A stretch of 64,000 bases of DNA from Flectonema sp. DT1601 (Eukaryota; Euglenozoa; Diplonemea; Diplonemida; Diplonemidae): NCBI GenBank assembly GCA_964019425.1, contig OZ025804.1, positions 496,001-560,000 of the forward strand, in the 5' to 3' direction. Positions 4,708 through 37,985 of the stretch are shown here, one piece after another. A model generated the notes under the pieces. That model did not search any database and had not been told where the DNA came from. It saw nothing but the letters and a program-made list of their open reading frames with translations. The stretch's first letter is position 1, and the number at the start of each line of letters is the position of its first letter. The position numbers and the translations under genes were made by a program.

Positions 4708-4744
<37 letters not shown>

Positions 4745-4814
4745 TTTTTTTGTTTTTTTGTTTTTTTTTTTTTTGTTTTTTTTGTTTTTTTGTTTTTTTG
4801 TTTTTTTTTTTTTT

Positions 4815-4876
<62 letters not shown>
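4708..4876 (-). other. Interrupted poly(A) tail of element A
   Basis: 169 bases of T broken only by single G bases in the left half (4744-4815), an A tract with single C bases on the minus strand. It follows the 3' UTR of element A and ends 45 bases before the ATG of element B. The periodic single-base breaks could be real or a long-read homopolymer artefact. Confidence 0.75.
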
Positions 4877-5604
4877 CGGGAAGATAAAATGGAAACTACT
4901 TTCTTTGTCCTTTCTCATTTTACAGCAAATTTGTAAAATCTTTCTACTGACTCTGATCGTTGTCTCGACATACAGCGACAGGGAAAACCCGCGAGCTGGG
5001 GACGACAGTCTTCTTTAGCATTTAAGCATTTTTCGACTTGAAAAGACATGACCCTTCAATTTAATGAGTTCTCATGTTTCTGGGTTTGGGATGGGGAATG
5101 TGCACTTCTTCTCTTGATCCTTTGTTCTCATGGACCCCTTGTCTCTGTGCACAAAAGATAATTCGTCGTCTACCCAGCTTTACATTTGTCGCTGTACCAG
5201 TAAATAAAATGGGGCGAAAGAAGGGGGTGTGAGTCGTCCGTCCTTTGATCTCTGGGGCGTACGGACGTCAAGTTTTTTCGCTTGAAAGTTTTTCATCCTT
5301 TTCTTGGGTTGGGGGGCGGCCTTTGATTTTTATAATATGTGTGCGGCCTTTGGCTCCACTGGTCGGTGTTTCCTGGGGGGGGTGAAAAGCATGTTTTGGT
5401 CCGAGTTTGCCTCGTTGACCGGGGTTTTTTTTTTTGGGGGGGTCTGGTTGCAGGTTGTGTCTCCTGCTTCGCGGGGGCTTTGGTCACGTTTCTAACCTCG
5501 CTCCCGCTCTTGTTCTCCCTCGTCCTCTACCATGTGTTTTGGGTTGGCTCTGGGGTCTTGGCTCTGTCTTTTCCTCGACTCTTGAGACCTCCTTCGTGGA
5601 GTCC
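4877..5604 (-). other. 3' UTR of element A
   Basis: 728 bases between the stop codon of the element A ORF and its A tract. No coding potential is supported: the small open frames are low-complexity or shadows. I see no clear hairpin by eye. Confidence 0.6.
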
Positions 5605-8600
5605 CTAGCGCCTTCCCCCTTTCGACGAGAAGTCCAGGACCCTTCGCGTTGGATCCCCTTCTCTCTCCCTCATCTCTCCTTGGGTGCTTTTCTCACTCTG
5701 TGACGACGACCTTGTGACCAACTCTACTCCTGCCACACCTTGTCCGTCTCGCTCCGCCGGCTCCGGGCGTACGCCCGCGTCCGTGAACGAGGTCAGGGAG
5801 CCCGGGGGCCCGTGTGCGTACCCCATTGTGTCGGGTGTGTCTCCCTTACCTACCCGACGCAGTGTGGGTTTCCTGTTGTAACTCCGCGGCGCCTGTTCCC
5901 TCGTGGTGCCCTCCACTGGCTCCGGTTCCTTCTGCTTGCGTCTCTTCCTCTTCGCTTTCCTGCTCGGGTCTGGGGAGAGAACCTCTATCCTCTCCCTCTC
6001 TTCTCCCTTCCTGTACCTCCTCCTCGCCTGCCGTTCACCTGAGCTCGGGGTGGACTCTCCCATTTCCGCCTGCAACACCTGCGGACTTGGGTCCTCCTTT
6101 CCGGCCCCCTTTGCCCTCGTCTTTGCCTTCCGGCCTCTCGTGCGTCCCCTTCCCGTATTTGTCTTCGGCGACACACACTCCTCCCTCTCCTCCTCCATTC
6201 CCTTTCTGTACTTCGTCCTCCCTCTCGTGCTCGGTGTCGACACCGTGCCCGGCGATCTCTCTGCGTCTTCCCCGCTCCCGTCACTACCCACTGCGCGTGG
6301 TCCCATCTTCGCCCCCAAACTGGATCTCTCGGCCATTGGTTTTGATTCGCCTGAGTTCACCAGCTTTGAAAGGGGCTCCGATTGGCCCTCCCGTCGTGTT
6401 TCCGCGTTCCCTCCTTCTGGGTGTAGTCCCAGCATCCAGGCCATCTGACCTGCGTTCCCCTCGGGCGCCGCTCCCTCTTCCCATTCCTGTTCATCGACCG
6501 TCATGGTCATTTGGGAGTCTGACGATCCCTCCTCCTCTGTGTCCGACTCTGCCACCTGGACCACGTCCTCTGACGTCTCCTCGACGTACTGGACTACTGA
6601 CCCTTCCGTCACATTTTCTCCGTCAACTTCCATCTCCGACTGTGAGTCTTCCAGGTCCTCCAACCCCTCCACTCCGTCCATGCCGTCTGACGACGGTGGC
6701 TCTCCTGAGTGGTGGGACGTCTCGTCCAGCTCGTCCCCCTTCTCGGCTTGCAGGTCCTCGGCCAGGTGATGGTTTTCGCCTGAGGTCTCTGCTGCCGACG
6801 GGTCTACTGACTGGTCCCTTTCGTCCGTCTGTTCTTCTGCTTCCATGTCCGACGTCCCTGGACTCCCCAAGGAGCCTCCCGACATGGAACCGTTCCCTTC
6901 GTCCTGCCCTGTCGCTGGGGAGGATGATCTATCGTCATCTCCCTCCGACCCTTCCGAGCTCAACTCCAGGACTCCCGCCTCTACCCTTTGCACGGCCCCC
7001 TTCGGGGTTGGGACCGGGCTCTGCTCGTCTCGGCCCTCTACCCTCGCGTCTTCTCCTTCCACCGACTCTCGGCCGCCTGACGATCCCGTCCCCTCTTCTG
7101 TGTACTGGGGTTCCAGACGCAGTTGTCTTCCCTCCCACCGCACCGTGAAGGGACCCGTCTGTGTCCCGTGTCCCAGGCAGTTCTTTGCCCCCTCTGTGAA
7201 AACCTTCATCACGGCTTCCGTCACTGAGGTCGAGCCCTCCTTCGCCGCTTTTTCAGCCTCCTCCGTCGCGTGTGTTCTCATCCTCTCTGGCATCTCCACC
7301 AGCGTCGTACGCCTCCCCATCAACTCCGCCTCCTCCAGCACCTCTCTCTGGCCCGTCGACCAGTGTGTCGTGCTTCCTCGCAGCAGCAGGGATGCCTCCG
7401 CTGGGACGAGGCCTCCACACGCCTTGGCCGCTACCAGCCCCACCAGGGCTGCGAAGTATCGCCCCCAGTGTGTGTCTCCCGCTGGCAGGCCAGCTGACCA
7501 TGTGCCCAACACCTCGAAACGGTGTGTGTCCAACCAGCTCGCCGCCGCCCCCAGACGGCCCGTTACCGGGTCTTCCTCGCATGCGTACACCAAGGTGTAC
7601 CTCGTCCCTACTTCGCCAACCACCTCCCCCAGCAGGTGGGTTCGGAGGTATCCCTCCGCCTCCCCCTTGCTTGCGAAACTCTTGTGTCTCGCCGCCGCGT
7701 AGCCTGACACCATCGAGTTCGCCTCGTTCCAGCATTGGAACAGGCCTACCGCCCTGCCCCTCGCCACTGCGTACCACTTACGTGGGCTGACTCCCTCCGT
7801 GGCCCGGGTCGGTTCCCTGGTCTCCGGCTGCCACCTCTCTACGAACCTGTCCGCCTCCTTCCTGGAGGAGAAACTCTGGTGTGTCGCATTCGAGCACCCT
7901 TCCGTCTGTGCCTTCGCCTCCTCCCACGATGCATACACTCCCGGTTTCCATCCCACCGCCACCGCATACAGCTTCTCCTCCTTCGACGGGGGGTCGGGGG
8001 ATGGGGGCTCTTTTTCCTCGGGTTGTCCCACTTCCTGTGCTGGCTCGTCTCTCAGCCCTACTGCTTCCGCTCCTTGTGCTTCCGTCGTCTGCGCTTCCAC
8101 CTGGGCTGGCGCTTCGGCTCGTGGTCTGTCTTCGCCTGATGCCGTCGACCCTCCTGGGAGCGACTGGGATTCATCCGGTTCCACCGCCTTTCCCCTCAAT
8201 TGGGACAGCCCCAGATTCATCTCCAGCTCGATCACCAAGTAGTCGAGCCCGTCCTCCGAGAGTTCCACCGGCTCGTCCCATGCCGCCGATTCCGCTTCCC
8301 AGAGGGCCAGGTTCTCCACCCCTCGTGAGCTTTCCGTCACCTGGTGTTCTATCACCGACGGGAGCGCTACCAACTTCAGCGCCTCCTGCTGCTCGGCTCC
8401 CCACCCCTGCTGCGGTGTGACCACCTCGATCTGTGTCTCACCCCCCAGCAGTTGCGATCTCTCCCTGATCGCGTTGAGCCCTAGCAGCGCTGCCACGTAC
8501 TCCGCAGTCGCTTCGTCCCATGTCGGTAGGCAGCCCGACCACGTGAACCTCCTGTCGAGCGTTCCCATGTGTATCAGGCATGCCGCCGCCCCCAGCTTCT

Positions 8601-11600
8601 CCATCTCCGCGTTCCAGACGCTCGATACCAGTAAGAGCAGCTTGCGCTGCGTCTGCCCCCCTACTACTCGCGTCCGGAGGACACACTCCGCCTCTTCCCT
8701 GGACGTGTACCCCGCGGTGTCCTCCTCCGACGACGGTGCCTCGCGTACCTCCATCCGGTCCTTGTTCGCCACCGGAATCCATCTCACCGGCACCCCGACG
8801 TCCTCTTGGGTCGATCCCTCCACCCTCGAGTAGACCACTACTACTGGTTTCGTCCCGTGGATCTCCTCTGTCGACACTTGGCTTATTGCCTTGTCGTCTT
8901 GCTTCTGCCAGCCTACTCCGTCCCACGTGTATGACACGTAATGCCCCGCGTTGTCACTCCCGAGGTGTGCGATCGCTCCCGTTTGCTGGTACGTCATCAC
9001 CCTCTCCCCGACCTGCACCTGGAAGCGCTCTTCCCATCCCAAGGACCCTTGCGTGTCCTGCTTGTCTCTCTGGAAGATCAAGGAGCTTGGGAGCGAGGCG
9101 AAACTCTCTTCCAGCGTGGCCTCATTGCTGCCGCACAGCTTCTCGCAGGACCGCTCGACTCTCTCCTTCGTCGGCTGAAGCCTCACTTGTGGTGTACGGC
9201 CACACAGTGGGATCAGCGTCAACTCATCCGTCGATCCGGAGGCGTCCGCACATCCCGTGCAGACCAGCTGTTTCAGCTGTACTGCCGAGAACAACGGTTC
9301 GCACACCTCTTTCTTCTCCTCCAACAGGGCGTCTACTATGGACGTCAGGGTTCCTACTACCTCCCCCTGCCGCCTGTCTTGTAGCGGGTCGAACATCTCG
9401 GACAGCTTCTCCAGGCACTCCCCACTCCCTTTGACCACTCCACTCAGGAGGCCCGACATCCCCACTTCCTCCTTCCCCGTCAGCACTTGTGTCAGTGCCG
9501 TGCCCTTCAGCAGGCACTGTACGGACGCGTTGAGGTAGCAGGAGTTCCCGATGTTCGGCAAACCCCTCATCGTCGGGGGCGGTCCTGCCGACTGTCGCAT
9601 TACTTCCGGCTGCTGGATCTCTTCCGTTTCCGCTCTCGGTCTTGGTTCTCTCTCTTGTGATGTCGGCTTCTCCGTCATCTCGGGCGGCGGTTTCGTCCTT
9701 GGCAATGGGTTCACTGAGTCCATCGCCACCGACGCCTCCCTCGCTCTCAGTGCTTCCGCCGTCGCCACTACCACCGATGTCGAGATCCTCCTCGCCATCT
9801 CCCCCGCGATCTCCCGGTGTGGCACCGTCGAGTTCGTTGCGCAGATCTGCACCAACTTCTTCAGGGTCCCCACTGCTTCCCGTCCCATCCCTCCGTACGC
9901 TTCCAGCGCGATTGTCGAGAAATTAATCCCGTGTTTCGTGCACTGCTCCGCGTACTTGTTCCCTTTCAGGGACTCTGCTTCTCTCGCGGCTTGCCCCGGG
10001 GTTTTATACAATTTAATTTTCCCCGGGTTTACCACTGTGATGTCGAAGGCTCTGCCTCTCCCCTCCCTCAGCCCCTCTTGGCAGTACCAGTCCCCCGGTC
10101 TCTGCTTGTTGGGTCCCAGTAGGTGGCTGGGTTCTCTCAGCAGCGGCAATCCCGCCTGCTTAAAGATGGAGATGAACTCCTCCTTCACCCTCTCGTGTCG
10201 CTGGTGCACGTGGCCGTTTTTGATACAGATTGAGGCATGGTATCCCTGCCTATCCTGTGGGCCTGAGCATATCCTGCATACTGCCCCTTCCGCGAACAGC
10301 GCTGCGCCCAATCGCATCCCACATGCGATCCTGAACGTCTCTGGGTCCATCGCGCACTCTTCATCTGCTTGTTGCAGCCATGCGCTCGCCTTATCCATGC
10401 GCAGGGAGAGCAGCCTCCCTTTATCGCGCGGGTCATTCGCCCCCGCCAGCAGGCAGTCTCTCTTGACCTGGTCCAGTTTCGCCGAGGACAGCCTCTGGGG
10501 GTTCGGCCCCGGCCCGTCTTCTTCTATCCTTAGCTCCTCCGGGAGGGCGAGGTTCAACCCCTTCTTCAGTGCTGGCATCAGCACCCCCTTGAACCCCTCC
10601 CACAGTGACTTGCTCACCCCTTGGACTAATTCCAGGGATCCCAATAGTGCTGCTCCCCTGTGCTCTGCACATGACCGCAGCCCCAATCCCCCCATCCGGG
10701 TCGGCAGTTGTGCTTGCATCCACTTTGGCCCCTCCAGTGTCAGGCCCAACACTCGGCTCGCCGTGGACCTCATCAGCTCGTCCACCTTCCGCATCGAGGT
10801 GTCCATTTTCCCATGCGTGCAGCATCGCATCAGGTGGGTCACCTTGCAGAAGCCCATGCATTGCCTTAGGAGCACCATGGCCACCTGCCGGTCCTGCAGG
10901 TCTGCTAGCAGCTCCGCTTTCTTCTCCAGCTGCGCCACCTTCCTGTCGACGAACTCCTGGCAGTGTTCCTCCGTCCCGAACGGTGCCCCCAGGAAGTCCC
11001 CGTTGTACAGTGGGGGTCTCATCCCTTCCAACCCCCACCCCAAGGGCAGGGTGTTCTGGGCTGAGTCGAGCACGTGCGTCTGGCACTTGTCCGGCCTCAG
11101 CGTCAGCCCCAGCTCCGCCGTCTCCTTCTGCAGGATTTGGAGGGCCTTGTCTACCTGTTCCAGGGTGCCCGCCACCAGCCCATCGTCCAGGTAGAAGCAC
11201 GCCAACTCCGGCTTCGCCTCCAACACCTTCTGCAGCGCCGGCTTGATTGCCAGCGAGAACAGCAAGGGACCCAACGGATCCCCCTGCTGAGCGCCCTCCT
11301 CCGAGCTCAGCCTCTCGTCCCCAAACAGCAACCACGTCGGCGCTCCGTAACACCAGCTGACCCAGCTCTCCAGCAGGGTATCCCTCGTCGAATCCAGGAA
11401 CGCCCCCCTCTTCACGCAGTTGAAGGCGTTCGAGAAGTCTATCTTCACGAACACTTTCTGTGACGAGAGCGCGTGCTCCGCGCGGAACTCATGCAGGGTG
11501 TGCACCGCCGCCTCCACTCCCCCCGACACCGCTACTCCCAGCTGTCTCACTTCTAGCAACGAGCTCCTCGCCTGGGACCTATATGCCCCGCACAGGATCT

Positions 11601-14127
11601 TCGCCACCAGCCGCCTCCATGTTTCCCCCACCGCGACTGGCCGGTGCTCCCCCGGCTTCCCTTCTTTCTCCAGCGCCGTCAGGTTCGCCCCCGCCAGCAG
11701 CGGCGCTACTTCCCGCGGCGCCCTCCCGTTCGCCAGAATCCTCACCACCTCCGTGATCGAGGCTACCAGCCCCGGCACCTCACCCCGCTCCACCACGTCC
11801 TTCAGGTGTTGCGGCGCGAGGCCCGAAGGCCCTCCACTCGACCCCCTGTGGAAGGAGCGTAGGCATGCTAGCAGCTCCACCTCTGCTATCTGCACCTCCT
11901 GCCCTGCCGTGGCCGATGGGGGTCCGCTCGCCCTCGGGTGTAGGGTGCGCATCTGCTCCAGCACCTTCTCGGTTCGTTCTGCTGGCGGCGGCGCGTCTAG
12001 GGCCGAGATCGCCTGTGACAGGCAACCCTCCCTCGCTAGCGACGTGGCCCTGTCGTTCCTTCCTTTTTGCCCCGCCTCTTTCACTGCTGGCCTTCCCGTC
12101 GCCTTGCGGGGGGCCGCCGCTTTCCACAGTCCCTCAAATTCCCCCCGAATCCATGCTTGCAGGTCGTCGACCGCCCCTGTCAGATCGCTGGTCGACAACC
12201 TCCTACCCCCCCTCCGTATCCTCCGCAGTGTACATGTCGGGAGCATCAAGAGCAGCTTCCATGCCCACTCATCGTTCCGCTCCACGACTAGGTCGAGCGA
12301 CAGCTTGAGTGCTCGCCCCAGATGATGCAACAGGGACACCGGCAGCTTCTTCGCTATCGGCCTCCTCCTGCTGGCTATTTCCTCCAAAGAGGGGAAGCTC
12401 TGGCTCTCCAGCACCCGCTTCCGGAACGCCGTGTACACGTCCCCCAGTTGGACCTTCTGCAGTTTCTCACTGCACCCCGGATGCATCGGCTGGTCCTGCC
12501 CGATGATCCCACAGCACACCGGACATTCCCGGAGGCCTAGCCTCGCCAACTGTCCATGCGTCAGCGGGTTGCCACTGAATGCGTGCTCGTCCACGTGTCT
12601 TAGGAGCTCCGCCCACTCCTCGAAGCCTCCCTTGTGTTTCGGGCACTCCGCTTGGGGGCACTCGTGCAGCTGGGCCTGTCGGGAGGCTGTCTGCAGCACT
12701 GCCGGCTCGCCTCCTGCTGCTTGCGACAGCGGGCCTGGCGACACTAACTCCAACCTCCGGGCGCTCTGTAGCAGCCGCGCGACGCAGTCCTCGGATGCCT
12801 CCACTGGGTCGTAGTGGCACCCGTTTTGCAGGGTCAAGACCAGCGTCCGCTTCGGGTCCGATGGCCCTTCCACCACCAGCGTTTCCGTCCTCACCACGAC
12901 GACGAAGCGGCACTGTAGGTCCTCTGCCATGACCTGTAGGGCCAATGCATCGCCCCAGCATCCATCCTCTTCCAACGCCCTCGCATATACTCCGAATGCG
13001 TCCGCGTCCTGGAAGAAGACCTCGAACCTTTCCCTGTTCTTGGTCAGGTATCCTGCCGTTCTCCTGCGGAGCTCTCCATGTCTGCCCTTCCACCCCTCTG
13101 GCGTCTCTAGGAGTTGGCACACACTCCTGAACAGGCAATTCCCATCCCCAATCACCCGGAATACTTTTGCTCCCTCGCACTTCAGGCTTGCCAGTTCCGG
13201 CGTGGGTCCCGTCGCTACCCCCAGCCGTCCCTTGAGGTCCAACATCTCCCGACACCTCACTGTCTGGTGCACCAATCCGGTACTCAGCTCCCCGCAGGCC
13301 TTGCAGATCTGCTTTCCGAGTCTGTCGGATGCCATCTGGGCCGTTACCTCCCCCGGTACCACTCCCTTCAGGTGTTGTTTGAAGTGGTACTCTAGGTCAC
13401 CCCTCACCCAGACGCTGCACCCCACCACCGGGCACTTCGTCCTCCCCTTGCTTTGCCCTCCTCCTGCCAGGTCTGACGGCCTCGCATACCATGGTCTGGG
13501 CTCCGCCTTGTGCCCTCCTGGCTTTGTCCAGTCCCTTTCGGGCCCTGCCCGTCGCTTCCTCGGTGTCTCCGCCTTGTTCTTCCTTGGCCTCTCTGTCTCC
13601 GCGCGGAACCTCTCTCGCCTGGCGTGGAACTTCTCCAACTCTCCCGCCCACCGCTCCCACCTCTCCTGCCGTTCCTTCAGCAGCTTCCTCCTCCTCCTTT
13701 CCAGCCGCCTTGCCGCCTTGGACGCCACTTTCGGGGACGCCCTCTTCAGGAGCTCCCTTCCTCCCTTGTCTGGAGGTGGCTTTGGGTGGTCTCGCCTCAC
13801 CCGGTTCCCGGCCGTTTCCGTTCCCCTCCGCGGGACCCACACCCCCTCTCGTCCATGTTGGAAAGCGCGTCCGCTTGCCGTATTGTTGGGGCTGTTTGAG
13901 CTGTTGGGGGTTATAAATGGGTGCGGGGGGATCGGGCGTGTTACGCGTCGGCTGATGCGCGATGAAAACAGTGGGCCTTTGTCCAGCGTTGTGAAAAGAG
14001 GGGTGTGCCATCCGCCTGGCACTGGGGCTAACCTCTGCTTACCCACTCCGGACGTCTGTTGCGCCCTCGTTCCACTTAGTAGTGCCCACAGCAGCACGTA
14101 CCCACACAGTAACATTGTTTTCTCCAT
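5605..14127 (-). CDS. Element A polyprotein: zinc fingers, OTU protease, RT, REL endonuclease, USP protease, viroplasmin-like motifs
   Basis: 2840 residues from the ATG at 14127. The frame is open further upstream, but that part is mostly lysine from two A tracts. In order: hydrophobic start (YVLLWALLSG), basic region, C2H2 finger (C232, C237, H248, H252), OTU domain (D328, C331 in GDGNCLFR; H438), C2H2 (C490, C495, H511, H515), CxxC...HxxC, RT about 813-1023 (D897 in KIDFSNAF; FYLDD with D981 and D982 replacing YADD), CCHC knuckle (C1284, C1287, H1297, C1301), REL endonuclease (RPGDW, AFDITVV; D1346, D1362), USP domain about 1520-1768 (C1530 in GNSCYLNA; H1729 in GHYVSYTW), two viroplasmin/RNase H1 hybrid-binding motifs (2052-2099, 2117-2164), degenerate RNase H-like segments, then acidic and basic tails. 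Expected role: target-primed reverse transcription. The two proteases may act on ubiquitin or on the polyprotein (inference). No frameshift or stop, so possibly active. Confidence 0.9.
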   Translation of the reverse strand: MEKTMLLCGYVLLWALLSGTRAQQTSGVGKQRLAPVPGGWHTPLFTTLDKGPLFSSRISRRVTRPIPPHPFITPNSSNSPNNTASGRAFQHGREGVWVPRRGTETAGNRVRRDHPKPPPDKGGRELLKRASPKVASKAARRLERRRRKLLKERQERWERWAGELEKFHARRERFRAETERPRKNKAETPRKRRAGPERDWTKPGGHKAEPRPWYARPSDLAGGGQSKGRTKCPVVGCSVWVRGDLEYHFKQHLKGVVPGEVTAQMASDRLGKQICKACGELSTGLVHQTVRCREMLDLKGRLGVATGPTPELASLKCEGAKVFRVIGDGNCLFRSVCQLLETPEGWKGRHGELRRRTAGYLTKNRERFEVFFQDADAFGVYARALEEDGCWGDALALQVMAEDLQCRFVVVVRTETLVVEGPSDPKRTLVLTLQNGCHYDPVEASEDCVARLLQSARRLELVSPGPLSQAAGGEPAVLQTASRQAQLHECPQAECPKHKGGFEEWAELLRHVDEHAFSGNPLTHGQLARLGLRECPVCCGIIGQDQPMHPGCSEKLQKVQLGDVYTAFRKRVLESQSFPSLEEIASRRRPIAKKLPVSLLHHLGRALKLSLDLVVERNDEWAWKLLLMLPTCTLRRIRRGGRRLSTSDLTGAVDDLQAWIRGEFEGLWKAAAPRKATGRPAVKEAGQKGRNDRATSLAREGCLSQAISALDAPPPAERTEKVLEQMRTLHPRASGPPSATAGQEVQIAEVELLACLRSFHRGSSGGPSGLAPQHLKDVVERGEVPGLVASITEVVRILANGRAPREVAPLLAGANLTALEKEGKPGEHRPVAVGETWRRLVAKILCGAYRSQARSSLLEVRQLGVAVSGGVEAAVHTLHEFRAEHALSSQKVFVKIDFSNAFNCVKRGAFLDSTRDTLLESWVSWCYGAPTWLLFGDERLSSEEGAQQGDPLGPLLFSLAIKPALQKVLEAKPELACFYLDDGLVAGTLEQVDKALQILQKETAELGLTLRPDKCQTHVLDSAQNTLPLGWGLEGMRPPLYNGDFLGAPFGTEEHCQEFVDRKVAQLEKKAELLADLQDRQVAMVLLRQCMGFCKVTHLMRCCTHGKMDTSMRKVDELMRSTASRVLGLTLEGPKWMQAQLPTRMGGLGLRSCAEHRGAALLGSLELVQGVSKSLWEGFKGVLMPALKKGLNLALPEELRIEEDGPGPNPQRLSSAKLDQVKRDCLLAGANDPRDKGRLLSLRMDKASAWLQQADEECAMDPETFRIACGMRLGAALFAEGAVCRICSGPQDRQGYHASICIKNGHVHQRHERVKEEFISIFKQAGLPLLREPSHLLGPNKQRPGDWYCQEGLREGRGRAFDITVVNPGKIKLYKTPGQAAREAESLKGNKYAEQCTKHGINFSTIALEAYGGMGREAVGTLKKLVQICATNSTVPHREIAGEMARRISTSVVVATAEALRAREASVAMDSVNPLPRTKPPPEMTEKPTSQEREPRPRAETEEIQQPEVMRQSAGPPPTMRGLPNIGNSCYLNASVQCLLKGTALTQVLTGKEEVGMSGLLSGVVKGSGECLEKLSEMFDPLQDRRQGEVVGTLTSIVDALLEEKKEVCEPLFSAVQLKQLVCTGCADASGSTDELTLIPLCGRTPQVRLQPTKERVERSCEKLCGSNEATLEESFASLPSSLIFQRDKQDTQGSLGWEERFQVQVGERVMTYQQTGAIAHLGSDNAGHYVSYTWDGVGWQKQDDKAISQVSTEEIHGTKPVVVVYSRVEGSTQEDVGVPVRWIPVANKDRMEVREAPSSEEDTAGYTSREEAECVLRTRVVGGQTQRKLLLLVSSVWNAEMEKLGAAACLIHMGTLDRRFTWSGCLPTWDEATAEYVAALLGLNAIRERSQLLGGETQIEVVTPQQGWGAEQQEALKLVALPSVIEHQVTESSRGVENLALWEAESAAWDEPVELSEDGLDYLVIELEMNLGLSQLRGKAVEPDESQSLPGGSTASGEDRPRAEAPAQVEAQTTEAQGAEAVGLRDEPAQEVGQPEEKEPPSPDPPSKEEKLYAVAVGWKPGVYASWEEAKAQTEGCSNATHQSFSSRKEADRFVERWQPETREPTRATEGVSPRKWYAVARGRAVGLFQCWNEANSMVSGYAAARHKSFASKGEAEGYLRTHLLGEVVGEVGTRYTLVYACEEDPVTGRLGAAASWLDTHRFEVLGTWSAGLPAGDTHWGRYFAALVGLVAAKACGGLVPAEASLLLRGSTTHWSTGQREVLEEAELMGRRTTLVEMPERMRTHATEEAEKAAKEGSTSVTEAVMKVFTEGAKNCLGHGTQTGPFTVRWEGRQLRLEPQYTEEGTGSSGGRESVEGEDARVEGRDEQSPVPTPKGAVQRVEAGVLELSSEGSEGDDDRSSSPATGQDEGNGSMSGGSLGSPGTSDMEAEEQTDERDQSVDPSAAETSGENHHLAEDLQAEKGDELDETSHHSGEPPSSDGMDGVEGLEDLEDSQSEMEVDGENVTEGSVVQYVEETSEDVVQVAESDTEEEGSSDSQMTMTVDEQEWEEGAAPEGNAGQMAWMLGLHPEGGNAETRREGQSEPLSKLVNSGESKPMAERSSLGAKMGPRAVGSDGSGEDAERSPGTVSTPSTRGRTKYRKGMEEEREECVSPKTNTGRGRTRGRKAKTRAKGAGKEDPSPQVLQAEMGESTPSSGERQARRRYRKGEERERIEVLSPDPSRKAKRKRRKQKEPEPVEGTTREQAPRSYNRKPTLRRVGKGDTPDTMGYAHGPPGSLTSFTDAGVRPEPAERDGQGVAGVELVTRSSSQSEKSTQGEMREREGDPTRRVLDFSSKGGRR

Positions 14128-14130
14128 TCT

Positions 14131-14166
<36 letters not shown>

Positions 14167-14277
14167 ACTCTTCCTTTTCCGTTCTCTTCGCTGTGGATGA
14201 TTTGTGTATGGAACCCGAAAAAAGACAATCGACTTACCTGCTCTTCTCCTTGTTAGCCCTGTACGTGTGTGTGGAGT

Positions 14278-14308
<31 letters not shown>

Positions 14309-14477
14309 CTGGCTCGCGTATCCTCCGCTTTCCGAACTCTTCTGTCTATGCGGTCACCCCCGTACAGTTCCGACGCAGAATGGTAGTCACCACCACGGGC
14401 ACCAAACAAAGCTAGTGAGAGAGTTCTTCCTTCTCCTCTCCCGCAGGCTGATTCGTAACGCTTTGTCTTAAAAAAGA

Positions 14478-14792
14478 GTTTTAACAGGAACAAAAAAAAG
14501 ATTTGCTCTGTTTGCAGGTCTTAAAAGCAAAGTTTAAACGAGAACAAGAAAAGATATGTTCTTCTCGCGCGCTGACTAGCGGAAGACCGTGTATCAAAGC
14601 AGAGTTTAAACAAGAACAAAAAAAAGGATATGCTCTTTTCGCTGTCTTAAAGCGGTGTTTAAACGAGAACAAGAAAGGATATGTTCTGTTCGTGCGATGT
14701 ATTGCGGAAGACCGTGTCTCAGTGTAGTTTTAATGAAGAACAAAAGAAAAAATTTGTTCTGTTTGCGCGTTCACCAGCGGTCCAGTCTCCAG
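14478..14792. repeat. Five imperfect repeats in A-B-A-B-A order
   Basis: Repeats begin near 14478, 14531, 14604, 14658 and 14728. Each holds AGTTTAAACGAGAACAAG or a close variant, then a GATATGTTCT-like box. Spacings alternate at about 53 and 72 bases, and the longer type also carries GCGGAAGACCGTGT. They lie just upstream of element A. They could be a 5' UTR/promoter repeat of the element or part of the target DNA. Confidence 0.7.
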
Positions 14793-15011
14793 AAAAGATG
14801 AGAAGGACGTATGTGCTGGATGAATAAGTAACTTTTTTTTGACCAAAGCAAAGTACTCTCGAAGACAACTCGAATCAGAATGCAGGTGGGGAAAATTTCA
14901 ACTCCTTCTTCAGCAGAGCAAGGTTTCCACAGCAACAACAATTATCCGCGCCTTCAATGTCCGTTTGTGACTGCTGGCCGACTCAAAGCGTTCGTAGACC
15001 GAAGATAGATG

Positions 15012-15055
<44 letters not shown>

Positions 15056-15513
15056 CCTACCCCGCCGATGTACTAGAGCTTACTGAAGGACCCGCGTTTA
15101 TCTCCTCCTCTGCAAGTATGCCTATGCAAAATCTAATTTCTTTTTTTTTTTTTTTTTTTTTTTTCTTCCTCTTTCTTCCTTAGTATTTTCTAAATAAACA
15201 ACGACAAGTAATACCAAATTCTTCTAAATAAATATGACCTAATTAATATATATAATAAACAATAAAAATTTTTTTTTCCAACTTTTTTTTTTTTTTTTTT
15301 TGATACTGGATATGTTGTGATACAGAGAAGGTTAATTCTCTGTTCACTTGATATCCTGTTTATGAGCGGGGTAAGTTGACCCCAAAAGGTTCGTTCATAA
15401 ATAGAAAGGAATACAATAGAGAAACAGAAGACTGAGCTAGTTTAGTCTAATGTGCAGCAAGAGTTACGTAAAAATAAAATTAATCAGCATAATAGTTACA
15501 ACAGCATGGTTTG
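14793..15513. other. AT-rich spacer with T tracts, no gene seen
   Basis: Holds T tracts near 15015-15055, 15142-15164 and 15283-15301 in AT-rich sequence. No open frame or RNA gene can be supported. It ends at the assembly gap. Confidence 0.6.
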
Positions 15514-15713
15514 NNNNNNNNNNNNNNNNNNNNNNNNNNNNNNNNNNNNNNNNNNNNNNNNNNNNNNNNNNNNNNNNNNNNNNNNNNNNNNNNNNNNNNN
15601 NNNNNNNNNNNNNNNNNNNNNNNNNNNNNNNNNNNNNNNNNNNNNNNNNNNNNNNNNNNNNNNNNNNNNNNNNNNNNNNNNNNNNNNNNNNNNNNNNNNN
15701 NNNNNNNNNNNNN
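15514..15713. other. Assembly gap of exactly 200 N
   Basis: 200 consecutive N. The round number suggests a scaffolding join of unknown true size. It abuts the satellite array, so the left end of the array is unresolved. Confidence 0.99.
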
Positions 15714-30700: not shown

Positions 30701-32444
30701 GAGAGGAAAAGGAAGGATGGGATAAATGTAACAGAGAGACAAACAAACAAAACAAAAATCCACCTGCGGTATCTTTCACCTCCAGCGACAGCCCTCTCAC
30801 CTTCTTTGTCTATCGAAGACGCAGAAGCGCAAGACTCGCAGCACGCACACGAACGTACGTGAGACCTACGGTCTGCCGATTTTTTTTTTTTTTTTGTGGG
30901 GTGGGAGGGTGGTCGGGTTTGCGAAATTCGTTAGCTCGAGTAAAAAAATCCGAGGTTCACGAAAACGCCTCTGACGAGGTGGGGAAAAACTGAGAGGAAA
31001 AGGAAGGATGGGATAAATGTAACAGAGAGACAAACAAACAAAACAAAAATCCACCTGCGGTATCTTTCACCTCCAGCGACAGCCCTCTCACCTTCTTTGT
31101 CTATCGAAGACGCAGAAGCGCAAGACTCGCAGCACGCACACGAACGTACGTGAGACCTACGGTCTGCCGATTTTTTTTTTTTTTTTGTGGGGTGGGAGGG
31201 TGGTCGGGTTTGCGAAATTCGTTAGCTCGAGTAAAAAAATCCGAGGTTCACGAAAACGCCTCTGACGAGGTGGGGAAAAACTGAGAGGAAAAGGAAGGAT
31301 GGGATAAATGTAACAGAGAGACAAACAAACAAAACAAAAATCCACCTGCGGTATCTTTCACCTCCAGCGACAGCCCTCTCACCTTCTTTGTCTATCGAAG
31401 ACGCAGAAGCGCAAGACTCGCAGCACGCACACGAACGTACGTGAGACCTACGGTCTGCCGATTTTTTTTTTTTTTTTGTGGGGTGGGAGGGTGGTCGGGT
31501 TTGCGAAATTCGTTAGCTCGAGTAAAAAAATCCGAGGTTCACGAAAACGCCTCTGACGAGGTGGGGAAAAACTGAGAGGAAAAGGAAGGATGGGATAAAT
31601 GTAACAGAGAGACAAACAAACAAAACAAAAATCCACCTGCGGTATCTTTCACCTCCAGCGACAGCCCTCTCACCTTCTTTGTCTATCGAAGACGCAGAAG
31701 CGCAAGACTCGCAGCACGCACACGAACGTACGTGAGACCTACGGTCTGCCGATTTTTTTTTTTTTTTTGTGGGGTGGGAGGGTGGTCGGGTTTGCGAAAT
31801 TCGTTAGCTCGAGTAAAAAAATCCGAGGTTCACGAAAACGCCTCTGACGAGGTGGGGAAAAACTGAGAGGAAAAGGAAGGATGGGATAAATGTAACAGAG
31901 AGACAAACAAACAAAACAAAAATCCACCTGCGGTATCTTTCACCTCCAGCGACAGCCCTCTCACCTTCTTTGTCTATCGAAGACGCAGAAGCGCAAGACT
32001 CGCAGCACGCACACGAACGTACGTGAGACCTACGGTCTGCCGATTTTTTTTTTTTTTTTGTGGGGTGGGAGGGTGGTCGGGTTTGCGAAATTCGTTAGCT
32101 CGAGTAAAAAAATCCGAGGTTCACGAAAACGCCTCTGACGAGGTGGGGAAAAACTGAGAGGAAAAGGAAGGATGGGATAAATGTAACAGAGAGACAAACA
32201 AACAAAACAAAAATCCACCTGCGGTATCTTTCACCTCCAGCGACAGCCCTCTCACCTTCTTTGTCTATCGAAGACGCAGAAGCGCAAGACTCGCAGCACG
32301 CACACGAACGTACGTGAGACCTACGGTCTGCCGATTTTTTTTTTTTTTTTGTGGGGTGGGAGGGTGGTCGGGTTTGCGAAATTCGTTAGCTCGAGTAAAA
32401 AAATCCGAGGTTCACGAAAACGCCTCTGACGAGGTGGGGAAAAA
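15714..32444. repeat. 291-bp satellite array, about 57.5 copies
   Basis: 16.7 kb of a 291-bp unit. Copies from about 16900 to 32444 look identical by eye; the first four next to the gap have single-base indels. The unit holds a 16-17 base T tract, a G-rich run (GTGGGGTGGGAGGGTGG) and, on the minus strand, a pyrimidine tract ending in CTCTCAG. A 62-codon minus-strand frame recurs in each unit but has no support as a gene: it runs through low-complexity sequence, and the first ~250 bases after the trans-splice site contain no ATG. I find no 5S rRNA, tRNA or SL RNA gene in the unit. Confidence 0.97.
32154..32181 (-). promoter_or_regulatory. Trans-splice acceptor in the satellite unit (last full copy)
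   Basis: On the minus strand, a pyrimidine-rich run ends in CTTTTCCTCTCAG, followed by TTTTTCCCCACC. In the final partial unit, 291 bases away, the bases from this AG upstream are replaced by the SL, and the sequence continues with the same TTTTTCCCCACC. That marks this AG as a used acceptor. The same site is present in every unit. Confidence 0.75.
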
Positions 32445-32483
32445 CAATAAAGTACAGAAACTGTAGCTTTAGAATCGTTGGTT
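32445..32483 (-). other. Spliced-leader exon sequence, retroposed copy
   Basis: 39 nt on the minus strand starting AACCAACG and ending ACAGTTTCTGTACTTTATTG. Length, start and 3' half match the euglenozoan SL pattern, and the full form agrees with the diplonemid SL as I remember it. The next base is T (TTTTTCCCC), not the GT donor of an SL RNA gene. So this is an SL already joined to an RNA body, i.e. a DNA copy of a trans-spliced transcript. Eight A bases, two of them within the SL, lie at its 5' side. Confidence 0.85.
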
Positions 32484-32745
32484 TTTTTTGTGTGCACCAC
32501 GACCCGTGAGTCTGTGATGCTGATTGCGCTGTTAGGCGCGGTTGTTCTTTTTCTTTCTTTCTTTCTTTCTTACTTTCTTTGTTTTGGGGGTTGGGGGTGG
32601 GAATCCCGTAGGCTTCGTATCTCCTTTCTTTGTTTTGATAACTTAAAACTAATACTACAGAATAAATTGTCCACTTGGACGACTTCAGATGTGTTGCAAT
32701 GATGCCTTCAATGTTGATATTCGAAATGTCGATGTTTTAATAATA
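32484..32745 (-). other. Spacer, possibly the 3' UTR of the truncated LINE
   Basis: Sequence between the LINE fragment stop codon and the SL. It holds a TTTC microsatellite near 32549-32576 and ends, on the minus strand, with a run of A bases leading into the SL. If it is the LINE 3' UTR, those A bases are its poly(A) tail. Confidence 0.4.
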
Positions 32746-33834
32746 CTACCGTCCTAATAGTTGTGCCAGTCTGTCTAAGGTTGTGACAAAACCAGTCATC
32801 TGCTGTTGATTCGCAGGTAAGTAGCAGTCCTCCAGTTGGCATGCTTCCTCTCCCTTGTCATTCATCATGTGACTGATGTATTTTTCCCTCAAGGTTTCTA
32901 TACACCAATGTTCGCATATAAATAATACATGATGTGCTGTCGCCTTTCCAAGTTTACAGAAAAAGCACAGCTCGTTCAGTCCTTTGATTATCAGAGATCT
33001 GCAATGTCCCACTCTAAAGCGTGACATCAGTACTTCCTCTGGTCGTGTTAGAGCTTCGATGTACGGAGGGTGTCTTACCTCTCCCGGTCCGATCCAGTTC
33101 TCCCGTTTTCTCCGCTTGTGAAACGTCATCAATGTTCCCATGTCAAGTTGAGTCGGCAGTTGTTTAATAATAACATCTTCGTGAGGTGGATCTTCCTTCA
33201 GGCCTGCAGCGAATTTCGCCAGTTGGTCCGCTACTTCGTTGTACCGCACGTTTCTGTGTGCCGGTACATACTGCATGTTGACTTGGATTCCCTTCTTCTC
33301 CAGTTTTATTGCCAACTTCCAGATCTTTTTGTTCATTGGGGACCTTTGTTTATATGGCCCTTGTTCCAATGCCTGCATGACTGACATCGAATCAGTCAAC
33401 AGGTGCGTCGTTGTTGTTAGAGATTCATGTTCATCCTCCGCCACCTGAACTAAATTTTCCAACGCCATTTTTACTGCAATCTGCTCGGTCCTATAAGAGG
33501 AACCCGCTACTGGTATTTTATATCCAAGTAGACGCATCTTGCTTCCGTTAACCATGACCACAGCGGCAGCCGAGTCTGTCATGTAAGTGTTGGGTTTGTG
33601 TCTTATCGACCCGTCAGTGTAGACTTTCATCTCGTGAGCTGGTAATTCAGTTTCTCGCTGTTCAGCCTCTTCCTTGTTGCGTGAATATGTGAATTTCATC
33701 GCATTAGTACTTTTCCATGGAGGGACAGTGTAGTGTTCTGGGTTCACTTCCAGGTTGGTAATGCTCCGGTAGTTGTCAAGGCCAGGGACACCAGAGACAT
33801 GGTCTATCCAGACATTCAAAGAGTTTGGTAGCAC
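32746..33834 (-). pseudogene. 5'-truncated LINE ORF: RNase H domain and zinc knuckle
   Basis: 362 residues without an RT. A type I RNase H domain spans about 68-210 with all four expected acidic residues: D74 (VYTDGS), E117 (SYRTEQIA), D148 (LLTDSMS) and D203 (EVADQLAKF). It is followed by a zinc knuckle, CFFCKLGKATAHHVLFIC. The order RNase H-knuckle is that of the C-terminus of I/ingi-like LINEs and of the plus-strand LINE next to it, but the two differ a lot in sequence. The RT and endonuclease parts are missing, typical of incomplete reverse transcription. No independent cellular function is implied. Confidence 0.8.
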
Positions 33835-33882: not shown

Positions 33883-34034
33883 AGGGGCGCTCTAGTCGAG
33901 GGGTAGTGTGTTTGGATTCAAGGTCTGCAGGCCTGGGTTCGATCCCTGCTCTGGTGAAATTTGGAGCAGCATGCCAAGGTGGAGGCGAAAACACCAGTGA
34001 GCTGCAGGAGAGCAATCCGGGTTGGGGCCCAACC
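33883..34034 (+). mobile_element. tRNA-derived SINE (copy 1), fused to a LINE body
   Basis: A 152-base segment almost identical to 37433-37584. Internal Pol III-type A box TAGTCGAGGGG (33893-33903) and B box GGTTCGATCCC (33936-33946). Unlike copy 2, its 3' end runs straight into the LINE sequence, with no A tail or target duplication between them. Confidence 0.8.
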
Positions 34035-37000
34035 CGGTTCGTCATAATCTTGATTACAGACTGAGCAAGGCGAGTTCTTCCGGTGACGTTGGGACTAGAG
34101 CTCGGACGTTTAACCACATCCTGCTGGCGTCTGCAAGGAACAACATCAGAAGGAGACTGAGGATAAAAGGGAAGAGGAGGAGATTGTGGAATGCCTCTGC
34201 CCCTGAGACCAAGCAAGCCAAAGGCAAGTTTATTTCCGAAAGGCTCTCAAAGGGTGAAGGCTTCGCCTTTGCATTCAAGAAAATTAAAGACCTTGAAGCT
34301 GATAGGGGGCAGGATATTTGTATTACTGAGTTCGATGAGAAACAGCTGCCCGAAAAGTTCCTAGACCAATATGTCAAGACCTCAAATAGACCGAAGTTGA
34401 AATCACCGTCTGTTAAACCTAGCGACTACAAAGATGTGTGTAGGCCTGTAGTAATGTCTGAACTAGAGTTTGCACTGAAAAAAGTTAAGTCAGGCAAGGC
34501 TCCTGGTCCGGATGGGATTCATGGAACGATGATTAAGAATTTATCCCCGCTGGGCAAGGTGCACCTTCTGTCTCTAGTTAACGACTCCTGGTTGTCGACC
34601 GAAGTGCCGAAGATCTGGAAGGAAGGCTTGATCAAGCCTGTTCACAAACTTGGCAAACCAAAAGAAAAGGTGGCAAGCTATAGACCAATTACGCTGACTT
34701 CAGTAGTTGGTAAGGTTCTAGAACGAATTATTTATGACAGATTGATGTTTTGGCTCACCCAGAACAAAGTTCTGTCTTCGATCCAAGCTGGCTTTAGAAG
34801 AGGAAGGAACACATGTGAACAGATTTCCCTACTTGTGAATGCACTACATGAGGCCGATGCAACCCAGAAGAGTTCTATATTACTGTCATTCGATTTCACG
34901 GAAGCTTTTGACAGAATAAATCACACCAAACTCCTTGCAAAAATGAAAGCTATGGGCATTCCCTCCCCGTTCATTGGGTGGATAGCCAACTTCCTTTCAG
35001 GAAGACGCACAAGGGTGGAAGCTAACGGAAACTTTAGTTCATACAAGACGGTCTCAATGGGTGTTCCTCAAGGTTCAATCGTGGGTCCGCTTCTTTACCT
35101 GATCTATGTGGATGACCTCGCAAAGACTTTGGAGAAAACTGGTTCTATCTCGGCTCTTTATGCCGATGACACTGCTTGTGTCATATCGGATAGGGACCTA
35201 TCAAGTACGAATAAGAAGGCTCAATGGATACTGGGACTCGTTGATACTTGGTGTAGGGACAACGACATGGCCTTGTCTGTTTCAAAAACGTGCGGGATGC
35301 CGGTGGGATGTCCGAAGAATGTGTACTGGAGACTGGGCTTCCCCAGGACGGTGAAAGACAATTTCTATCTGGTGAACAGGGATGATTTGAGGAAGATGTT
35401 GCAACCAAATGACTCTAAGAGGCCAATATTAAGAAGTGGTGAAACAATTCTAAAGATCGATGACACTGAAGTCCTTAGCACTGATGATTTAATGAGGGTC
35501 ATACTCGCTGGCCCGCAACGGACTCGGGTAAGATTACTAACATCGGTTCTCTTGCCGATGGTGGACAGCGTAAAGTACCTTGGGGTCCACATCGATGATG
35601 ATCTCAAGTACGATACACAAGTTGATAAAATACTGAACGAATCTAGGAAGGGACTGGCTCTGCTGAGGAAGCTCGAACCTTATAACCTCGATTTTAAGTC
35701 ATTACAGATGGTAAAAAACCTCTACATCCTCTCAAGGGTGTCCTACGGTCTGGAAAGCTTCGGCCCATTCCTAACTGATGAACAACTTGGGCCAATCGAT
35801 CTCAGTCTTAGGAAAGTCGCGAGGAGGATCACGGGTTGCAGTGACTTTACACGCTCCTTGCCGCTGTTGTGGGAAGCGGATATGCTGCCAATGCGCCTTC
35901 TGATCGAAAAACAAGCAAGGACTGCCCTCTTCAGGTACAGATCTCTGAAGTGGGTCCCCTCAACTCGTTCAATTGCTAGTGGTCTATGGAGTTTAAAACT
36001 ACCGCCTGAGGATCGACAGATCTCAATTCAAGATATAGTACAGCCCGACAGTATTGAACCGTGGGCAGATGTACCGAACCTCTCGATATCGTGTGGCTAC
36101 GGACACTCCAAAACTGTCGATGCTGCAGCTGATAAACTAAAGTTTGATGAATACTGCAGGGAACTCAGACCCTCTGACTCCACGATATATACTGATGGAT
36201 CTCATGACCCTAAGAACTACACTGCTGGTGCAGCGGCCGTGCAGGTCTTACCGGTAGAGTGTACCAGGGCATCCAGACTTGTGGCCACCGAAAGTAGTTA
36301 CAAGTCTGAACAGATAGCTCTGAAATTATTGGTTTATGAAATTGGCAAGATAAACTCGCCGTTTGGATCTACCTGCGGGATCACAAGGATATTTAGTGAC
36401 TCGAAGTCGAATTTAGATGAACTGAAGGGAGGTATTGTGGCTCAGAGGAAGGTGAATTCGCTGTCGATACTGAACAAAATCAAACAATTGGGGACCTTTG
36501 TCCATCTTCAATTCATCCCATCGCATGTAGGGATTGATCCTCACGACAAGGCTGATAAACTGGCTAAGGCAGCTTCTAAAGATTTGGATGGGAAGCCAGT
36601 TAATTCAAAAATGGACTTCTTTGCACACAAGTCGAGGGTTGCACGCGAAACCGGTAGGAAGCTATTTGGCAGGATGCTTGAAGGTGCTGAGACTGCGAGG
36701 CCCCCTGTCAAGCGTGTCATGCTGAGACAATACCTGGAAGCCACTGGGGGTTACAAGGCTGCTCGTTACCCCCCCAACATGCTGAGGTCATCAGAAATTA
36801 GAATAGCTAGATTCAGGACTGGATCTCATCACTTACTTAGAATTAAAGAAGTTCCTCGGATGTGTCTCTTTTGTCAAAGAACGGAGTCTTCACCACGTCA
36901 TCTGATACTGGAATGCACTGCTGCGGCGCTGATGTACATTCGAAAAGGAACTATTGGTGAAATTATTGAGGAAGCAAGAATCTCGAAGACTGCCTTGAGT

Positions 37001-37081
37001 CTTCCGTTCATGTTTGCTACACGTAACTTGCATGCCCTTGCCGGATTCATATGGAACATGGAGCAATGGGTTCAAACCTGA
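34022..37081 (+). CDS. LINE ORF: reverse transcriptase, RNase H, zinc knuckle (5' truncated)
   Basis: 1019 residues; the first few codons lie in SINE sequence, so the start is artificial. RT about 140-530: KAPGPDGIHG, D291 in SFDFTEAFDRI, MGVPQGSIVGPLL, LYADD with D382 and D383, and KYLGVHIDDDL. Between the YADD palm and KYLG is an extra ~70 residues (435-510) resembling half a PDZ domain. RNase H about 715-850: D725 (YTDGS), E763, D793 (FSDSKS), SHVGIDPHDKADKLAK. A C-terminal knuckle, CLFCQRTESSPRHLILEC, follows. The endonuclease expected at the N-terminus is missing. The clade is probably ingi/I-like, as in trypanosomatids (inference). The frame is intact and transcription could start in the SINE Pol III promoter, but without an endonuclease it is unlikely to be autonomous. 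Confidence 0.85.
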   Translation: MGPNPVRHNLDYRLSKASSSGDVGTRARTFNHILLASARNNIRRRLRIKGKRRRLWNASAPETKQAKGKFISERLSKGEGFAFAFKKIKDLEADRGQDICITEFDEKQLPEKFLDQYVKTSNRPKLKSPSVKPSDYKDVCRPVVMSELEFALKKVKSGKAPGPDGIHGTMIKNLSPLGKVHLLSLVNDSWLSTEVPKIWKEGLIKPVHKLGKPKEKVASYRPITLTSVVGKVLERIIYDRLMFWLTQNKVLSSIQAGFRRGRNTCEQISLLVNALHEADATQKSSILLSFDFTEAFDRINHTKLLAKMKAMGIPSPFIGWIANFLSGRRTRVEANGNFSSYKTVSMGVPQGSIVGPLLYLIYVDDLAKTLEKTGSISALYADDTACVISDRDLSSTNKKAQWILGLVDTWCRDNDMALSVSKTCGMPVGCPKNVYWRLGFPRTVKDNFYLVNRDDLRKMLQPNDSKRPILRSGETILKIDDTEVLSTDDLMRVILAGPQRTRVRLLTSVLLPMVDSVKYLGVHIDDDLKYDTQVDKILNESRKGLALLRKLEPYNLDFKSLQMVKNLYILSRVSYGLESFGPFLTDEQLGPIDLSLRKVARRITGCSDFTRSLPLLWEADMLPMRLLIEKQARTALFRYRSLKWVPSTRSIASGLWSLKLPPEDRQISIQDIVQPDSIEPWADVPNLSISCGYGHSKTVDAAADKLKFDEYCRELRPSDSTIYTDGSHDPKNYTAGAAAVQVLPVECTRASRLVATESSYKSEQIALKLLVYEIGKINSPFGSTCGITRIFSDSKSNLDELKGGIVAQRKVNSLSILNKIKQLGTFVHLQFIPSHVGIDPHDKADKLAKAASKDLDGKPVNSKMDFFAHKSRVARETGRKLFGRMLEGAETARPPVKRVMLRQYLEATGGYKAARYPPNMLRSSEIRIARFRTGSHHLLRIKEVPRMCLFCQRTESSPRHLILECTAAALMYIRKGTIGEIIEEARISKTALSLPFMFATRNLHALAGFIWNMEQWVQT

Positions 37082-37419
37082 CAGCACTCAGCTGTAGTTA
37101 AACAAGTCAATACTATTATCTTTTAGTATACATCTTCTCCATTCTTTCTCCTTATCTCCTAGTTCTATGAGGACAACCGTAGGGCCCTTTCGGCTCGCAG
37201 GTGACCCAGTGGTCTTTGGCCACCGTCTTTACGTTGATCTCTCGCTTTGCAAGCACAGTGTCAGGAGCTGCCGATCCGTGGAGGTCCTCTAACGGACTCC
37301 TGACAGTTGCACGCGTATCTTTGTCTTGTTAAAAAATAAGAAGAGCGTTGGTGCTCAGAATATAAAAAAAGCAAAATGAAAGAGAGACAAGAAAGATGTG
37401 ACAAAATAAAAAATAAAAA
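34035..37419 (+). mobile_element. 5'-truncated LINE body with 3' UTR
   Basis: LINE sequence from the SINE junction through the RT/RNase H ORF and a ~340-base 3' UTR that becomes A-rich (repeated AAAATAAAA-type runs) at about 37370-37419. There SINE copy 2 has inserted. I could not find a target duplication for the whole SINE-LINE unit. Confidence 0.65.
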
Positions 37420-37607
37420 GTCAGAAATTTTTAGGGGCGCTCTAGTCGAGGGGTAGTGTGTTTGGATTCAAGGTCTGCAGGCCTGGGTTCGATCCCTGCT
37501 CTGGTGAAATTTGGAGCAGCATGCCAAGGTGGAGGCGAAAACACCAGTGAGCTGCAGGAGAGCAATCCGGGTTGGGCCCCAACCTCTGACCCCAGGTCAG
37601 AAATTTT
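37420..37607 (+). mobile_element. tRNA-derived SINE (copy 2) with 12-bp target duplication
   Basis: Same 152-base element as copy 1 (37433-37584), with A box at 37443-37453 and B box at 37486-37496. It is flanked by the direct repeat GTCAGAAATTTT at 37420-37431 and 37596-37607, so it is a clean insertion. It carries a short CTCTGACCCCAG end rather than an A tail. Confidence 0.85.
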
Positions 37608-37864
37608 ATTGGGGTGAAAGTAGTCTAATGGTAGGACGCTCCCTGGGTAATGTGTCGACCCAGGTTCGAGTCCGGCCATAGACAACTTTCAGGGTAGGAT
37701 CCCTGCAAAAAATCCAGTCTAATGACACTAAGGCAAACGGTCGGGCCCCGGACTTTGAGAGCTTGCTCGCCTTCCAAGTACACACCTTCACTCACCTACC
37801 AACAGAAAGGGTAGAGAAAGGCGACTCACTTAGCAGGGGTTGAAAGTACGGCTAGGAAGGTTCC

Positions 37865-37905
<41 letters not shown>

Positions 37906-37913: not shown

Positions 37914-37985
37914 TCCTCGGTAGTATAGAGGTCAGTATTTCCGCCTGTCACGCGGAAGACCCGGGTTCAATTCCCGGCCGGGGAA
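37914..37985 (+). tRNA. tRNA-Asp (GUC)
   Basis: Cloverleaf folds by eye. Acceptor TCCTCGG pairs with CCGGGGA (one T-G pair). Anticodon arm CCGCC-TGTCACG-CGG gives anticodon GTC. T arm CCGGG-TTCAATT-CCCGG. A box TAGTATAGAGG and B box GGTTCAATTCC are intact. No intron. It looks like a functional host gene rather than a SINE head, because it is followed by a T5 stop and lacks a tail. Confidence 0.95.

Follow-up and report, generated by a model that had tools for sequence, protein, structure and literature searches.

The stretch of DNA that was analysed here, called the window, is 64,000 nucleotides long (C25:496001-560000) and belongs to a genome that was searched over 89.5 Mb in 92 contigs. Its minus strand carries a tandem array of 291-bp units, joined at its outer end to a spliced leader (SL), and the giant open reading frame of a retrotransposon, the array being located 5' of the frame, across a run of 200 N. 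In minus-strand order, the features are the following:

32484 to 33834, minus strand: 3' part of another LINE with an RNase H domain (ORF 32746-33834), the presumed landing site; six A directly before the SL
32445 to 32483, minus strand: complete 39-nt SL, very probably the 5' terminus of the inserted element; counterparts in SL RNA gene arrays of the same genome
15714 to 32444, minus strand: 58 monomer starts of 291 bp, the last copy cut by the gap
32154 to 32183, minus strand: closest intact acceptor (CCTTCCTTTTCCTCTCAG) downstream of the SL, which substitutes for the equivalent position at 32445
15514 to 15713, no strand: run of exactly 200 N, an assembly gap between the array and the element body
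15283 to 15513, minus strand: fragment of another repeated sequence, ending in an A-run and lying between gap and body (95% to L072 over 235 columns)
14125 to 15278, minus strand: 5' leader of the element (97.8% to the C2 copy, L106, over 1607 columns; 97% to the C52 copy, L032, over 815 columns)
5605 to 14493, minus strand: 2962-codon open frame, probable ATG near 14127, with OTU, reverse transcriptase, ubiquitin hydrolase (UCH) and RNase H1 N-terminal (Cauli_VI) domains
4877 to 5604, minus strand: 3' untranslated region, whose last 401 bp (4877-5277) were matched genome-wide
4708 to 4876, minus strand: poly(A) tail, a 169-nt A-rich run

A 387-bp tandem repeat in three copies (1617-2777) lies to the left of the element and is unrelated to the SL finding.

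The SL joint and the SL RNA genes

Read on the minus strand, the joint runs from AAAAAA through the SL (AACCAACGATTCTAAAGCTACAGTTTCTGTACTTTATTG) into TTTTTCCCCACC, which is the start of the 291-bp unit. The SL is exact and complete at 32445-32483, occurs only once in the window, and is matched in none of 100 shuffles. Intact array units end with a pyrimidine-rich tract and CTCTCAG, which by sequence is a trans-splice acceptor, and it is at this AG that the SL is fused to the first unit of the array. One period further inside, the position equivalent to the joint reads CCTTCCTTTTCCTCTCAG and then TTTTTCCCC, i.e., a pyrimidine tract and AG, and the C at 32445 is separated from the C at 32154 by precisely one 291-bp period. 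The position of the joint is ambiguous by one base because the minus-strand G at 32445/32154 is common to the acceptor AG and to the SL end TTG. Between 15834 and 32444, 58 copies of the 24-mer following the acceptor succeed one another at steps of about 291 bp. Units 1-49, counted from the SL, are letter-identical, and the variants adjoin the 200-N run; since this assembly gap forms the left end of the array, the array length is a minimum only. The earlier note had claimed a fusion exactly at the acceptor, in register over one period, having the look expected of a DNA copy of a trans-spliced RNA, and all of this is borne out by the exact 39-mer and the measured 291 bp. It had also taken the copied RNA for that of a satellite; here we depart from it, the unit turning out to be the 5' monomer of a retrotransposon. 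Hence, of its proposal that the satellite is transcribed, spliced and copied back, the form of a DNA copy of trans-spliced RNA stands, the free satellite does not, and the steps themselves would apply to the element.

Judged by its genomic context, the 39-mer is the real SL of the organism, i.e., the exon of tandem SL RNA genes. With 3 mismatches or fewer allowed, 717 genome matches are obtained for a 33-mer from the SL, and 675 for the SL running into its intron (ATTG followed by GTACAGTCTC); nearly all of the 100 places listed for the latter form tandem arrays, whose periods include 623 and 610. At one of them (L018), three 5S rRNA genes lie between SL exons. The available part of a study of Diplonema papillatum describes a 39-bp SL exon, a 75-nt intron and a linkage of the SL with 5S rRNA (PMC10161547). 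Exon length and SL-5S linkage fit, and the host is likely a diplonemid; the diplonemid-like lineage named in the earlier note thus gains support, short of proof. The SL letters of a published diplonemid were not found in the accessible part of PMC2663770.

Two further observations concern the SL genes. The SL RNA gene array at C20:1248652-1318628 (G000) has a 610-bp period with recurring 1695-bp steps (about 1085 bp extra, possibly insertions within SL units), and it switches from the plus to the minus strand between 1292021 and 1306059. At L011 and L070, the SL-gene upstream motif (tttttaaggtt) precedes the SL, but non-intron sequence follows it; these are possibly retrocopies that recombined into an SL gene.

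SL genes being so plentiful, and array ends being easily misassembled, one could imagine a DNA-level recombination between the array and an SL RNA gene, or take the junction for an assembly artefact. We consider this extremely improbable. The tandem gene copies that were read (L018-L030) have TTTATTG followed by GTACAG, and a fixed upstream sequence of their own. At the joint, neither the intron GTACAG after the SL nor the upstream sequence before it is present, and recombination with an SL RNA gene was rejected on these grounds. Moreover, the same joint occurs 22 times in the genome, next to flanks of several kinds.

SL-monomer junctions and the element body

Genome-wide, and at up to 3 mismatches, the SL joined to a monomer start is found at 22 loci, window included. 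Other SL-satellite junctions, which the earlier note had proposed to look for, therefore exist at 21 more places; the monomers there are related to those of the window, and the window junction is not unique. By type, 2 junctions are of the window type TTTTTCCCCACC (window and C52), 16 have TTTTTTCCCTCC and 4 have TTTTTTCCCATC. An intact acceptor precedes a monomer start in 11/22 (ten loci covered for 1.2-1.5 kb beyond the SL, plus the window); at the other 11, including all 4 of the TTTTTTCCCATC type, only the SL and the first monomer bases were read.

Either the leader or the 3' end of the element ties 15 of the 22 junctions to it. In twelve of these, an element 3' end follows downstream on the same strand, at a distance of 11.15-27.6 kb; four of the distances are 11.23-11.25 kb, and five fall between 11,231 and 11,472 bp. 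Three more ties come from C2, C6 and C73, where the leader of the element follows; for C24, C27, C38, C47, C49, C63 and C67, the read range was too short to decide. In the window, the distance from junction to 3' end is 27,606 bp, which matches the expectation of about 11 kb plus 57 units. The C2 copy is contiguous: from an SL at 1787034, 52 monomer starts succeed one another at exact 463-bp steps, and the last monomer runs on into a leader and a frame 97.8% identical to that of the window, all in register. The C52 copy carries, after the SL, the first half of a 291-bp unit before sequence of the 463-bp type takes over, and its scored 3' end is 100% identical to that of the window. A further monomer family is represented by L069 and L078, each with an SL and five identical 288-bp units (79% identity to the 291-bp unit over 198 columns; body not read). 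As at C2, a related array follows the SL at C24, where the body was likewise not read. In anatomy, copies of the family start with an SL that directly abuts a 5' monomer at its first base, and go on through one to more than 50 head-to-tail monomers, a leader and a giant R2-like frame to poly(A).

These copies bear on the nature of the 291-bp array. In the window, the link between array and frame rests on strand, distance and the C2 and C52 copies, because the 200-N gap and a foreign fragment intervene. A free satellite could have been transcribed, trans-spliced and copied back alone, with the retrotransposon adjoining it by coincidence. Besides the gap that parts array and frame, the distribution of the 40-mer spanning the intact acceptor speaks for this: its 57 genome matches at up to 3 mismatches all lie in the window array, with none elsewhere in the genome at this threshold. 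A free satellite is nevertheless very unlikely, given that the element begins, at other loci, with related monomers joined in the same way to an SL, contiguously in C2 and C52, and that the 15 tied junctions involve the element itself. A satellite independent of any mobile element was rejected, the C2 array being contiguous with the body and the C52 copy opening with the 291-bp unit. By this comparison of copies, the array is the element's own front-end repeat and not a free satellite.

The body is that of a non-LTR retrotransposon. The frame at 5605-14493 encodes a reverse transcriptase of the non-LTR type (Pfam RVT_1, E 7.7e-17), whose best PDB match is the R2 protein (E 4.5e-06); among solved structures it is nearest R2, in likeness to R2-type elements. 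CCHC and RPGDW...FDIT-like stretches come after the reverse transcriptase, where no Pfam model matches, and we take them to resemble a restriction-like endonuclease motif. The OTU and UCH domains and two Cauli_VI stretches in the same frame make an unusual deubiquitinase-like set for one LINE. The elements SLACS, CRE and NeSL insert into SL genes; unlike in these, the SL described here is part of the insert and not the target. Indeed, an SL-gene-targeting element was tried as an explanation and rejected, the upstream flanks of the 22 junctions being A-runs and other elements, not SL gene repeats.

Dispersed copies with a 3' poly(A) and differing flanks were observed for the window and ten fetched 3' ends. 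Of 119 candidate matches to the last 401 bp, 40 were scored, all with 96-100% identity, and one of these 40 is that of the window itself. Twelve of the 40 3' ends have an SL partner. Of the other 28, covered at the 3' end only, some lie 0.3-2 kb from another 3' end (e.g., C55, C59 and C6) and are probably truncated copies. No target-site duplication was found for the window copy, the best candidate being two 10-mers, at 32989 (inside the neighbouring LINE) and 54890. None was convincing in 10 other flank pairs, whose longest non-simple shared words have 10 nt (C16) and 8 nt (C54a). In the C1 pair the shared word is a T-run, and A-rich sites hide short duplications. The possibility that the element is itself a retrogene, i.e., a host mRNA copied by the enzyme of another element, was discarded, since the copy encodes its own reverse transcriptase; what it has in common with retrogenes bearing SL relics is an SL in DNA joined at an acceptor.

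Landing sites, chains and other SL copies

On this evidence, the SL is very probably the 5' end of an inserted non-LTR retrotransposon, the RNA of which would have been trans-spliced at a monomer acceptor and then copied back. The SL-bearing copies carry a DNA copy of the SL, which is most simply read as meaning that the copied RNA had been trans-spliced. In the process that we propose, the RNA of the element, which probably belongs to a longer transcript, would be trans-spliced at a monomer acceptor and so acquire a cap, an SL and a fixed 5' end. The element's own reverse transcriptase would copy the RNA up to the cap, with insertion beside A-runs that often are the A-tail of another retroelement. 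The acceptor that was used would be lost with each insertion, and unequal exchange between the leftover homologous units would regrow the array, as in the window, and supply fresh acceptors.

At least three A directly precede the first SL nucleotide in 19/22 junctions versus 1/19 distinct non-LINE SL copies (the non-LINE count drew on 24 rows, from which 3 duplicates of the same place and 2 members of the further monomer family were dropped). In 14/22 junctions, the A-run is the tail of another retroelement. The upstream partner is an element called X in nine cases, the same family in three (C23, C30 and C73), a LINE like that at 34022-37081 in one (C52), and the RNase H LINE (32746-33834) in the window. 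Element X has at least 41 genome matches (40 of 93 candidates scored).

The chains of an element, a short A-run and an SL-element could also be products of template jumping, in which the reverse transcriptase would pass from the capped end of the SL RNA to the tail of another RNA, rather than of insertion into an A-tail. Several features speak for this reading: the A-runs at the 19 joints are short (3-8), while six of the eight X copies fetched without an SL-element have longer or interrupted tails (L114-L119); C73 is a chain of three elements; at L113, the X tail joins an internal A-run of the giant element's leader, and at L112, a 5'-truncated copy of the giant element comes directly after X and eight A; and an SL stub with 8-9 A precedes truncated copies at L122 and L123. 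The C52 copy points the other way. There, 13 nt separate the 3' flank of the SL-element from a tRNA gene downstream, the same spacing as for the window copy of the LINE that precedes the SL, and this geometry is expected if the SL-element entered the tail of that LINE. Template jumping is a plausible account of the chains, to which we give less than even weight.

The two loci also inform on the LINE itself. In the window, it occupies 34022-37900 on the plus strand, with a reverse transcriptase, a weak RNase H match and a 35-A tail that stops 13 nt short of a tRNA-Asp gene (37914-37985). The C52 locus has a relative of this 3' end, together with the SL-element, 13 nt before a tRNA-Asn gene. Their positions suggest that LINEs of this type may target the upstream side of tRNA genes.

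Some SL copies fall outside the monomer plan. At L122 (C71:606640-607400) and L123 (C73:15300-16060), the SL is joined to internal frame sequence of truncated copies (98.8% and 99.9% to the window's frame), with TTC-A9 or T-A8 in between and no monomer acceptor joint. Because of these intervening letters, the SLs near a 3' end on C71 and C73 were rejected as short acceptor-spliced copies. Both copies resemble the chains above, the upstream partner here being an SL stub, and show that an SL can arrive at the element in a second way; the source of the SL at L122 and L123 seems to be either a very short SL-bearing RNA or template jumping.

More generally, the SL not followed by G has 83 exact genome matches, of which 22 are the SL-monomer junctions, versus 0 for a reversed control. 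Among 30 such loci fetched, stacked SL relics occur at six places (L054, L060, L061, L064 with L065, L073 with L074, and L080), the newer SL following AAAG or CTACAG of the older one in five of the six, L054 differing. One gene (ATGTCCGGAACACAAGAATCG...) is represented by several retrocopies, at L060, L061, L064, L068 and L074, whose SL relics are single or stacked, as if this gene had been trans-spliced and retroposed repeatedly.

Proposed array growth, known systems and significance

Large arrays appear to have grown after insertion. The first three units are letter-identical within each of C2, C17 and C24, and the units of these loci differ from one locus to another by 10-15 aligned columns; identity within and difference between loci suggest such growth. 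In the simplest reading, an insertion would bring with it, after the SL, one complete monomer and part of another; exchange between the two would amplify the first. Many-unit arrays may also have been copied through RNA, since the 1501 nt that follow the SL are the same at L069 and L078, and an identical first unit is common to C6 and C24, and likewise to C1 and C16.

The anatomy leads to a further idea, which we advance tentatively and think rather unlikely to hold as stated. Trans-splicing would be obligate, each round would spend the outermost acceptor monomer, replaced by the SL, and only regrowth by unequal exchange, locus by locus, would keep a copy mobile. By analogy with telomeres, which are spent and then rebuilt, the copies with long arrays (window, C2 and C24) would, on the same tentative footing, be the masters. 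Two near-identical loci (L120 and L121, C24:955060 and 960936) were considered as single-monomer daughters of such a cycle and rejected, their partial SL being followed by only 155 nt of monomer and then by other sequence. This sequence resembles by eye the start of the giant frame, and the two loci are perhaps a spliced and captured leader duplicated in tandem.

Several components of this organisation are known separately. As far as the accessible parts of the cited papers describe them, these are SL relics of retrogenes, 5' monomers of mouse L1, and the solutions of trypanosomatid LINEs for their 5' end, and a single paper touched the same idea (PMC5832876). The retrogenes of dinoflagellates carry DinoSL relics, including stacked ones, in the available text of PMC6050394. 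As there, a DNA-encoded SL marks the copy of a trans-spliced RNA, and stacked relics occur here among the non-LINE copies. Unlike those retrogenes, the present element is a self-encoding retrotransposon with a 5' SL, whose tandem monomers hold further acceptors, and, unlike at stacked relics, no second SL is found within the 36-45 nt upstream of the 22 junctions. Mouse LINE-1 has tandem 5'UTR monomers before its ORF region, in a number that varies between copies (cf. PMC9022269). The likeness ends with their role: the mouse monomers are part of the promoter, whereas those described here end in what, by sequence, is a trans-splice acceptor.

The trypanosomatid elements L1Tc and ingi carry Pr77; according to the consulted parts of PMC4035085 and PMC8190864, they rely on a promoter and an HDV-like ribozyme, and their RNA is unspliced. 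They are likewise non-LTR elements of Euglenozoa that need an RNA 5' end defined within longer transcripts. In contrast to them, SL addition would set the 5' end here, and no ribozyme family, HDV-like included, reaches the Rfam gathering score in the window, L031, L032, L069 or L111. In Schistosoma mansoni, six SL sequences are fused to mobile elements, and trans-spliced, retro-transcribed elements were suggested (PMC5832876, in its accessible part). The authors of that study leave room for chimeric assembly, whereas the joint described here recurs at 22 places and matches the acceptor of the element. The search, which extended to papers outside subscription, turned up no description of a retrotransposon family that combines a genomic 5' SL with acceptor-bearing monomers.

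How a retrotransposon defines its 5' end under polycistronic transcription and trans-splicing is an open problem. This genome records, at base resolution and in many copies, what appears to be another answer, namely borrowing the SL of the host. If this is true, each insertion would be a 5'-complete record, array size may be a measure of the element's remaining mobility, and an apparent satellite would be explained as the front end of a mobile element.
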